From Faecalibacillus intestinalis (GTDB lineage Bacteria > Bacillota_I > Bacilli_A > Erysipelotrichales > Coprobacillaceae), in the NCBI RefSeq assembly GCF_003024685.1, contig NZ_PYLQ01000005.1:1-64000 (forward strand): DNA of 64,000 bases. The letters run 5' to 3'. The notes beneath the pieces were generated by a model that was not told the DNA's origin, ran no database searches, and saw nothing but the letters and a program-made list of their open reading frames with translations. Shown piece after piece: positions 49,320 to 61,932 of this stretch. The position numbers and the translations under genes were made by a program. Every line of letters starts with the position of its first letter. Within the stretch, counting starts at the first letter, position 1.

Positions 49320-50123
49320 TTATCTAATAACTTTTTGAATCATTCGATTCATTGTATATACAATGATAATACCTACAGGTATCATCACACATGATTTTAA
49401 AATTCTTACAAATTGTGATGCAAAGAATGGTATTCCATACATTGTTTGTAACCAATATGGTGTTAAAAACATCGTTACTGTTAGTTCAATAGCCACAACT
49501 GATAGAATACTTAAATGAAATAAGCATAAATCTTTTTCTTTGAGTTTATTTTTATAATATCTTATAAAAATAAAGAGAATAGTAAGCATTGCTGCAATGA
49601 TGACAAAGATTGTAAATTTAATTGGTAATGTTACTTGATATGAAGATCCTGAAATATTAACTTCATTGATTTTAAAAACATAAAGACATCCTAGTAACGA
49701 AATAATGACCATTACTATTTTTACAATTCTTTCTAATAATCTTTCATTTTTTTCATTTAAATAAATCTTTAATAGACATGGTATTTCAGTTTGTAAAACC
49801 GCATTTAAAGTAAATCCTAAAAATGGAAATCCTCCAGCATTTGCTAGAACAAGACCTAGAAAATCTGTGGCAATAGAAACTATAAAACAATACCCTGGTT
49901 GTAATGTTAAACCAGCAACGATTAAAGGTAATACCTCTAATGTAATTTTTAAACTTGGAAAGCCAAGAAAAGGTACCATCACAGCTAACCTTTTTAAAAT
50001 AATAGCTAGAATGACAAATAAAGCCCCCAATGTCATTTGTCGCACATCGCTTTTCATTGGATATTTATAAAAAACAAATATCCCAATCGAAACAATAATA
50101 ACCCCTAAAATAATTTGAATCAT
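49320..50123 (-). CDS. ECF transporter S component, FolT-like (folate?) with extra helices
   Basis: This 267-residue membrane protein has an N-terminal extra helix, then an ECF S-type core (about 25-125, with LGFPSLKITLEVLPLIVAGLTLQPGYCFIVSIATDFLGLVLANAGGFPFLGFTLNAVL) that resembles FolT, then about four more helices. ATG 50123 has no good ribosome site. A TTG at 50150 has AGGA five bases upstream inside the last tandem element, so a 276-residue form starting there is equally possible. Position after folC supports folate uptake; this is inference. Confidence 0.72.
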   Translation of the reverse strand: MIQIILGVIIVSIGIFVFYKYPMKSDVRQMTLGALFVILAIILKRLAVMVPFLGFPSLKITLEVLPLIVAGLTLQPGYCFIVSIATDFLGLVLANAGGFPFLGFTLNAVLQTEIPCLLKIYLNEKNERLLERIVKIVMVIISLLGCLYVFKINEVNISGSSYQVTLPIKFTIFVIIAAMLTILFIFIRYYKNKLKEKDLCLFHLSILSVVAIELTVTMFLTPYWLQTMYGIPFFASQFVRILKSCVMIPVGIIIVYTMNRMIQKVIR

Positions 50124-50169
50124 CGTTTGATTGCTACTTAAAAAAACCAATTGTTCCTGCTTCGTCCTC

Positions 50170-50211
50170 TTATAAGTCCACAGGCGTTAATTCCGGTAAG
50201 AAACCGTACAT
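50170..50211 (-). CDS. putative mini-ORF 3 in tandem element (13 residues)
   Basis: ATG start, MYGFLPELTPVDL, TAA stop, with GGGA nine bases upstream. Third-position changes (TTT to TTC, CCC to CCT) relative to the other copies are silent, while ATA-TCG to TTA-CCG changes two residues. It ends 20 bases before the alternative TTG start of the FolT-like gene. Confidence 0.33.
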   Translation of the reverse strand: MYGFLPELTPVDL

Positions 50212-50237
50212 ATGTTTTTTCCCACTTCGTCCTCTTT

Positions 50238-50276
50238 CTAGTCCATGGGCGTTAATTCCGATATAAAACCGTACAT
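50238..50276 (-). CDS. putative mini-ORF 2 in tandem element (12 residues)
   Basis: ATG start, MYGFISELTPMD, TAG stop. GGGA lies eight bases before the ATG, supplied by the end of the first element. Confidence 0.33.
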   Translation of the reverse strand: MYGFISELTPMD

Positions 50277-50300
50277 ATGCTTTCCCGCTTCGTCCTCTTG

Positions 50301-50339
50301 CTAGTCCACGGGCGTTAATTCCGATATAAAACCGTACAC
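50301..50339 (-). CDS. putative mini-ORF 1 in tandem element (12 residues)
   Basis: GTG start, VYGFISELTPVD, TAG stop. GGAGGAG lies 17 bases upstream, after the folC stop codon. Same frame as mini-ORF 2. Listed because the peptide is kept in all three repeats; translation is not shown. Confidence 0.3.
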   Translation of the reverse strand: MYGFISELTPVD

Positions 50340-50372
50340 AATTGCTACTAAAAGTAGACTCCTCCTTCTTTA

Positions 50373-51884
50373 TTATTTGCTATGAATCTTTTGTAATAAG
50401 TATTTCCTTACTTCAGAAATAAAATACAATGATCCCGTAATCAAAAATGTTCCTTCTTGTAAATAAATATCGTCTAAAGCTTTTCTAAAGTCCGGTTCAA
50501 TTTTTACCGGATAGTCCCCTGCTAATAATTTTGCACTTTGACTACGTGGATGTTTAAATTCACAGACGGTTATATCATACGTCAAATCTAATAATCTTTC
50601 AATCATATAGTCCGTATCTTTATCTCTTAATGCTGAAAAGATGATTTTTAAATTATGTAATTTACGTGCAGAACGATAGAGTTCATCAACACCTTCTCGA
50701 TTATGGGCCCCATCTAAAATAATCAGTGGTTTTTCACTTATGATTTCAAAACGTCCTGCCCACTTAGCTTCAAATAAACCTTCAACAATTGAAGATTCAT
50801 CTAATTCAATAAAATGATGTTCCTTTAAATATAATAAGGTTTCTAATGCTAAAGCACTATTTTCAATTTGATAAAGAGCTGGTGTATTTAAAACAACATT
50901 ATAATCCTTATATGTATATTTAACATTTTCACCATCTTGTAAATCATGAATACGATCTAAACGAATCAAATGACTATGATGCTTTTCACAAGTATCTCTA
51001 AAAATATCAACACATTCTTGTTTATGTTCTCCTGTAATAAAATCAACATGCTCTTTAATAATTCCCGCTTTCGCTCTAGCAATACTTTCATAGCTATCAC
51101 CTAAATAATCCATATGATCTAAACCAATATTCGTATTGACGCAAACCATTGGTAAAATAATATTCGTTGCATCTAATTCTCCACCTAATCCAACCTCATA
51201 AATGGCATAGTCAACACCTTGATAAATAAAGTAAAGAATTGAAATAAAGACTTCTATTTCAAATAAAGAAATCTCATACTTTAACCAATTATCCACATAT
51301 CTATTAGCAACATCAACAATAAATTGTTCCTTGATCCATTCATCATTGATACGTACGACATCTAACCTAGAAATAAGTGCTGGTGAAGTAAAAGTTCCTA
51401 CAGTATATCCCTGTTTTTTTAAAACTTCTTTCATGTAATTAACAGTCGAACCTTTCCCATTTGTTCCACAAACATGGATACATTTTAAAGCATGTTGGAT
51501 ATTATAAAATTCTTGCATATATTTTTTAAAGTTATCTAAACTATAGACACGATCTTTTTGTTGATGAATAAAGTCATAGACTTCTTCATAGTGTTTAAAT
51601 TGTTTTTTTGTTTTTATTTGTATGATTTTATTTTGATAAATGATATCTTTTAGAGCTATTTTTTTAATGACTGCTATTAATTGTTGTTTAATTTCATCAG
51701 TTCCTAAACAAAGTTCTATTTCATTTTTGATAACATCAAAAATAATAACCCCATTGATATTTTGATTTTCATTGACATAAATAATCTTTTGATTTTGTTT
51801 TAAATATTCTTTTGTTATTTCTTCTTGATGGATAAATTGTATTAATTCATCCATTCTTTTTTCATTTAATAATTTGATAGACAT
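50373..51884 (-). CDS. folC: folylpolyglutamate/dihydrofolate synthase with N-terminal extension
   Basis: A 503-residue Mur-ligase-type enzyme that adds glutamate to folates. The P-loop GTNGKGST (140-147), FTSPAL, EVGLGGELDATN and ILDGAHNREG motifs are intact. The FolC fold begins near residue 96. The preceding ~90 residues (IIYVNENQNINGVIIFDVIKNEIELCLGTDE) look like part of an acetyltransferase-like fold and are not part of normal FolC. GGGTG precedes ATG 51884. It lies upstream of the tandem elements and the FolT-like gene. Confidence 0.92.
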   Translation of the reverse strand: MSIKLLNEKRMDELIQFIHQEEITKEYLKQNQKIIYVNENQNINGVIIFDVIKNEIELCLGTDEIKQQLIAVIKKIALKDIIYQNKIIQIKTKKQFKHYEEVYDFIHQQKDRVYSLDNFKKYMQEFYNIQHALKCIHVCGTNGKGSTVNYMKEVLKKQGYTVGTFTSPALISRLDVVRINDEWIKEQFIVDVANRYVDNWLKYEISLFEIEVFISILYFIYQGVDYAIYEVGLGGELDATNIILPMVCVNTNIGLDHMDYLGDSYESIARAKAGIIKEHVDFITGEHKQECVDIFRDTCEKHHSHLIRLDRIHDLQDGENVKYTYKDYNVVLNTPALYQIENSALALETLLYLKEHHFIELDESSIVEGLFEAKWAGRFEIISEKPLIILDGAHNREGVDELYRSARKLHNLKIIFSALRDKDTDYMIERLLDLTYDITVCEFKHPRSQSAKLLAGDYPVKIEPDFRKALDDIYLQEGTFLITGSLYFISEVRKYLLQKIHSK

Positions 51885-51910
51885 AATTTCACCCACAAAC
51901 ATTATAAAGG

Positions 51911-61783: not shown

Positions 61784-61798
61784 AAAAAATCGAAATGT

Positions 61799-61884
61799 TG
61801 ACTTCCTACGATGGCATTATCCATATCAGGTTAAAGGGTCGAAGTTTGATGACTTCCTCTCAGCCTGCCTACAAGCTCCCCTGT
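61799..61884 (-). ncRNA. TPP (thiamine pyrophosphate) riboswitch
   Basis: On the minus strand the aptamer reads CAGGGGAGC, GCTGAGAGG, a P3 arm with AAGT/ACTT, GACCCTTTAACCTGATATGG, ATAATGCCATCGTAGGAA. These are the conserved THI-box landmarks. With the terminator at 61757-61783 it should shut off thiM-tenA when thiamine is plentiful. Confidence 0.93.
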
Positions 61885-61932
61885 TTCTATTTACATATTT
61901 AATGATACTCTTTATTTTTTTAAATACAAGTT

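Follow-up and report, generated by a model that had tools for sequence, protein, structure and literature searches.

A TnpB guide RNA-like core in the folT leader of Faecalibacillus intestinalis and its relatives: a putative split ribosome-binding site

Introduction

TnpB is the transposon ancestor of Cas12. RAGATH-18 (RF03064) constitutes the reRNA scaffold of the IS607 TnpB, for which the TAM was AGGAG in 18 of 22 strains (PMC11061315), and a RAGATH-18 oligonucleotide containing a k-turn has been crystallised (PMC8191799). Parts of the TnpB system have been exapted by hosts for gene control, as exemplified by TldR, nuclease-dead TnpB-derived repressors which keep the protein and a guide RNA and act in trans on DNA (PMC13418256). 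That a mobile element can be tolerated at the RNA level inside the transcript of a gene is known from IStrons, which splice out via a group I intron (PMC4227781). In T4 genes 38 and 25, a fold between the Shine-Dalgarno (SD) sequence and the AUG restores the spacing between the two, with hairpins bridging 22-27 nt (PMC3014915). Finally, leader RNAs of folate genes are known in the form of the THF-I and THF-II riboswitches.

Here we describe the leader of folT in Faecalibacillus intestinalis and its relatives. With the IS607 reRNA it has in common a core composed of P2, a junction, P3 with a k-turn, and P4. The plan of the k-turn (UGGA/NNN-GAAG) is identical to that of the crystallised one, and the flanks resemble IS607 ends, with AGGAG beside the left end and GAGTAGCA at the right end. 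Unlike the reRNA, the folT leader has no tnpB and a shorter P4 arm, scores below the RF03064 gathering threshold, is fixed in the leader of one gene, gives no sign of a guide and works in TnpB-free genomes. It is similar to the T4 genes in that structured RNA lies between SD and AUG, with a predicted effect on translation; however, the span in the folT leaders ranges from about 100 nt with one core to about 235 nt with three, and their fold is complex and conserved, comes with alternative helices and is probably of transposon ancestry. In contrast to TldR, the leader would consist of RNA alone and act in cis on the mRNA. It differs from the THF riboswitches in architecture and has no Rfam match, and it differs from IStrons in that no intron was recognised and the RNA would stay in the transcript.

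Results

The window, i.e., the whole stretch of 64,000 nucleotides of F. intestinalis DNA analysed here, contains folT downstream of folC (Table 1). The folT product matched TIGR04518 with 130.9 bits (cut-off 60), scored on the longer, TTG-initiated ORF 49320-50150. The folC stop, at 50373, is followed closely by the SD, and the entire gap between the two genes is one structured leader on the minus strand, extending from the SD (at about 50367) to the folT ATG. The three tandem units that an earlier note had described between folC and folT are present on the minus strand, at 50281-50338, 50218-50275 and 50153-50210, with a spacing of 63 and 65 nucleotides, each core being 57 nt in length, and their 4-base arms pair and covary as had been reported (listed under P3 in Table 1). 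The note had also stated that no known riboswitch class was matched and that THF-I landmarks were absent. In agreement with this, no Rfam family was found for the stretch even at E≤10, and no THF model matched in the window or in 12 sources at E≤10. Elsewhere in the window, a TPP riboswitch is located at 61786-61892 on the minus strand (RF00059, 66.2 bits).

Table 1. Features of the folC-folT region of F. intestinalis in the order of transcription.
Feature	Position	Strand	Remarks
folC, upstream of folT, same direction	50373..51902	(-)	TIGR01499, 334 bits
Shine-Dalgarno GAAGGAGGA	50360..50368	(-)	5' of the element; includes AGGAG, the published IS607 TnpB TAM (PMC11061315)
CTAC, 5' strand of outer helix P0	50354..50357	(-)	Kept in nearly all leaders; alternative partner is the local GTAG 50345-50348
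Local GTAG, competing strand for CTAC	50345..50348	(-)	RNA folding, sequence
CAATTG, P1 5' strand, P1 enclosing all three cores	50339..50344	(-)	P1 partner-swap test
Core unit 1: P2 hairpin, GAAUUAACG junction, P3 CCCG/CGGG, k-turn, P4	50282..50338	(-)	R2 46.5 bits, E 7.4e-8
Core unit 2: P3 CCCA/TGGG	50219..50275	(-)	R2 43.5 bits, E 3.4e-7
Core unit 3: P3 CCTG/CAGG	50154..50210	(-)	R2 52.1 bits, E 4.1e-9
CAATTG, P1 3' strand	50148..50153	(-)	P1 partner-swap test, sequence
GTAG(CA), P0 3' strand	50134..50137	(-)	Similar to the right end (...GAGTAGCAG) seen in IS607 copies
folT, folate-family ECF S component	49320..50123	(-)	ATG 50121-50123, start by homology

The conserved ATG at 50123 (MIQII...) is most likely the true start of folT, rather than the TTG at 50150. 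The AGGA noted earlier in front of the TTG is therefore not the folT SD, which is located upstream of the whole element. In the window leader, the calculated free energy of the anti-SD duplex was -12.2 kcal/mol at the 5' SD versus -0.5 kcal/mol just upstream of the folT ATG. The mean at the 5' SD in the leaders of 27 genomes was -11.0 kcal/mol (in leader L026 the measuring window cut the AAAGGAG short), and no SD was present in the 17 nt preceding the folT ATG of these leaders (mean -0.4 kcal/mol, as in random sequence). For comparison, the median of the other genes in the window was -7.7. In three folT genes without the element, the SD adjoins the start (-8.9, -4.2 and -7.8). The folT leaders have the layout of a split ribosome-binding site: a strong SD beyond the normal spacing, none near the AUG, and structure between. 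Such a mechanism is, in our judgement, somewhat the likelier mode of folT initiation, and the element probably acts in cis on folT.

The outer helix P0 (CTAC/GTAG) hardly varies and is thus without covariation support. RNA folding predicted pairing of CTAC with the distant GTAG at a probability of 0.99 in the window leader, and of 0.90-0.99 when the leaders of four out of five congeners are included. In several Thomasclavelia-type leaders pairing of CTAC with the local GTAG was favoured; P0 is clearly favoured by thermodynamic folding in some leaders only, and L026 is devoid of CTAC. For L031, L162 and L163, all three of them Erysipelotrichaceae leaders, folding predicts base-pairing of the SD itself. 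One variant folT leader (L165; G629:C82) has no 5' SD. Its SD AGGAAAGG adjoins the ATG and coincides in part with the P3 3' strand, an arrangement that would resemble an SD-sequestering switch. The design with a 5' SD is therefore not universal.

To assess conservation, FolT was searched in 60 relatives and the regions upstream were then read. The core precedes folT in all 27 family genomes having a clear folT, in line with the previous description of a structured, tandem, cis-acting RNA linked to folate uptake. The folT-type element was found in none of the ten family genomes searched that have no clear folT; weak core matches in three of these turned out to be tnpB-type RNAs. Three tandem cores are present in all six Faecalibacillus species, and one core in other genera. 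Among 31 distinct cores from related genomes, the 5-bp helix P3 is paired in 100% and shows double changes at four of its five pairs; P2 covaries as well, and none of 500 shuffles reached the covariation observed for the whole structure. Pairing of P1 was stronger with native partners (mean -6.1 kcal/mol) than with partners swapped among 26 leaders (-4.2 kcal/mol; 0 of 5,000 permutations). The GGA and GAA columns are invariant in all 31 cores. With UGGA opposite a 3-nt loop and GAAR, and with a standard pair at 4b:4n that covaries (U-G, U-A, G-C), the core contains, by sequence, a consensus k-turn of the N3, RAGATH-18 type.

A covariance model built from folT leaders alone (R1) was run on genomes from the class (395), the order (316) and the phylum (392), these sets being overlapping. 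This search, akin to one that the earlier note had proposed, found folT leaders in related genomes and, in addition, RNAs at tnpB 3' ends. The inspected matches ranking below the folT leaders were mostly such tnpB 3' ends, together with some apparently tnpB-less remnants (L052, L164, L167, L170); some of the weakest matches, located inside unrelated genes, are probably due to chance. R1 scored all 15 chosen tnpB-linked RNAs, with 21.8-56.4 bits. Conversely, a model built from these tnpB-linked RNAs alone (R2) recovered all folT-leader cores of the tested sources (33 matches including those in Shimazuella, E 2e-10 to 5e-6, 175 kb). Besides folT-leader and Shimazuella cores it yielded nothing at E≤1 in these 175 kb, and it gave no match at the three element-less folT loci. 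Strong covariation of the same 13-pair structure was also seen among the tnpB-linked RNAs (0.58 versus 0.18 shuffled), a figure that leans towards this structure because the tnpB-linked alignment had been fitted to R1. Given that each of the two models finds the RNAs from which the other was made, the core is almost certainly homologous to the scaffold core of TnpB reRNA/omegaRNA. Rfam assigned one tnpB-linked RNA to RAGATH-18 (RF03064; positive control L055, 73.8 bits). The gathering score of this family (44.9 bits) was not reached by the folT leaders: the window gave no match, and the best leader (L022) scored 28 bits (E 0.25). Formal membership in RF03064, unlike homology, is thus not established.

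A similar arrangement was found in three species of Shimazuella (L123:1566-1850, L157, L161), where AAAGGAGAGCTAC, a core and GGTAGC lie upstream of a gene for a PepT-like M20 peptidase (TIGR01883, 460 bits), and the element and this gene come after a carboxylase-like gene. The layout SD-GCTAC-core-GTAGC-start is as in the folT leaders. Hence, genes other than folT can have this arrangement, and this makes a folate ligand built into the core somewhat less likely.

The genome of F. intestinalis itself contains three folT units and one other related RNA, which belongs to a tnpB gene (C45:43229-43323; L191; R2 53.5 bits). A REP-like repeat dispersed without gene association, considered in the earlier note as a possible refutation, was therefore rejected.

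Discussion

We favour, with moderate confidence, the view that the leader is an exapted reRNA core that serves as a structured split ribosome-binding site and stems from a decayed IS607-type element. Such an element would have inserted upstream of an ancestral folT, between its SD and its start codon; tnpA and tnpB would then have been lost and the folded RNA retained. The present units would represent copies of the TnpB reRNA/omegaRNA core, each with a P2 hairpin, a GGAAUUAACG junction, P3 with its RAGATH-18-type k-turn, and P4. Formation of the core or cores, together with P1 and P0 as closing helices, would bring the distant SD and the AUG near each other so that translation can start, and displacement of P0 by local hairpins, in which CTAC pairs with the nearby GTAG, would make initiation fall. 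In some Erysipelotrichaceae an AAAGGAG/CTCTTT hairpin may be the alternative that replaces P0. In Faecalibacillus, the core would have been tripled within one P1/P0 frame.

Intact IS607 copies examined here adjoin GGAG and end in GAGTAGCAG, a right end that GTAGCA preceding the folT start resembles. The left end of the folT element (AGTCTAC) differs from the intact IS607 left end examined here (ATATGTTAAG), and decay of the leaders precludes proof of an insertion event. In genome G547 (L175-L179), IS607 copies are located directly 3' of a Shine-Dalgarno-like GGAG, in keeping with an AGGAG TAM. In G018 (L173/L174), an IS110-like element interrupts an IS607 tnpB beside AGGAGAGTCTACTC, a 14-mer like the 5' flank of the folT leader; the exact occurrence of this sequence in the tnpB gene was considered as the source of that flank and is treated as coincidence.

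It is possible, though we do not expect it, that the leader represents a new class of folate-sensing riboswitch, whose core gained a folate or THF pocket, giving three sites in Faecalibacillus, and in which the ligand shifts the structure between P0/P1 and the local hairpins to turn uptake off. Within the family the element is tied exclusively to folT, its unpaired junction and k-turn are strongly conserved, and the three Faecalibacillus cores are each conserved with covariation. The overlap of SD and P3 in L165 and the SD-sequestering alternatives in L031, L162 and L163 would also fit. However, the same unpaired bases are kept in tnpB-linked RNAs, so that their conservation need not imply a ligand site, and the Shimazuella element precedes a gene that is not a folate gene. 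Metabolite sensing by the leader, in whatever form, rates as doubtful, and a shade more doubtful is a metabolite-responsive switch in which the reRNA-derived core binds folate (at up to three tandem sites) and thereby joins or separates the split ribosome-binding site. If true, a folate-binding exapted core would mean that the origin of a riboswitch class can be traced to the TnpB/Cas12 system.

Improbable, in our view, is a leader read by a protein, with an L7Ae-type k-turn binder or another regulator repressing or activating folT translation. Every core has the consensus k-turn, binding of AfL7Ae to the RAGATH-18 k-turn has been observed in vitro (PMC8191799), and tandem sites would suit cooperative binding, but the locus has no regulator gene associated with it and conservation extends past the k-turn into P2 and the junction.

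The homology of the core to tnpB-linked RNAs, and the tnpB with a similar RNA in the same genome, might suggest that the leader is a trans-acting guide RNA for TnpB or a nuclease-dead, TldR-like homologue, by which the element is regulated or protected. This is very unlikely. No tnpB adjoins folT, and matches to PF07282 and PF01385 were absent from 14 near-complete genomes that bear the element, including the single-contig genome G042; in these genomes the folT leader was the sole match of R2. The element thus works without TnpB, and an action dependent on TnpB or TldR is ruled out as a general rule. We attach just as little probability to an inert transposon remnant retained by chance or mobility alone. 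Kinship to mobile-element RNAs and the occurrence of tnpB-less remnants with RE-like hairpins elsewhere (L164, L167) would be compatible with it, but the element is found in the same place in more than 30 species and is missing from genomes without folT, P1 and P3 show compensatory changes, and the core is approximately 90% identical where FolT is approximately 41% identical (medians that include two truncated FolT translations). Leader-peptide attenuation, the other reading offered by the earlier note, can practically be discarded: mini-ORFs of 12-13 codons do exist and are open in all three window units, but they are not conserved outside the genus, where the Thomasclavelia frame stops early (ATG TAC GGT CAT TGA) and indels in the P2 loop shift the frame in other genera, while the RNA and its pairing are kept in the 31 distinct cores.

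A literature search of incomplete coverage brought up no description of the reuse of a TnpB RNA in an mRNA leader. The RNA part of the TnpB system alone seems to have been kept here, in cis in an mRNA leader and throughout a family of gut bacteria, including TnpB-free genomes. This would give an ancestry to a leader RNA, an element of a kind that usually has none, and suggests how a TnpB element targeting AGGAG, itself a Shine-Dalgarno sequence, can be tolerated within a ribosome-binding site. The folT leaders may offer a natural, conserved split ribosome-binding site in one-core and three-core versions. Apparently tnpB-less core RNAs were also seen upstream of tig, alr or an HTH gene, or in multiple copies (G129), at loci L164, L167, L170, L197 and L052; some of them have RE-like hairpins, and they are likely to be MITE-like remnants or further leaders.
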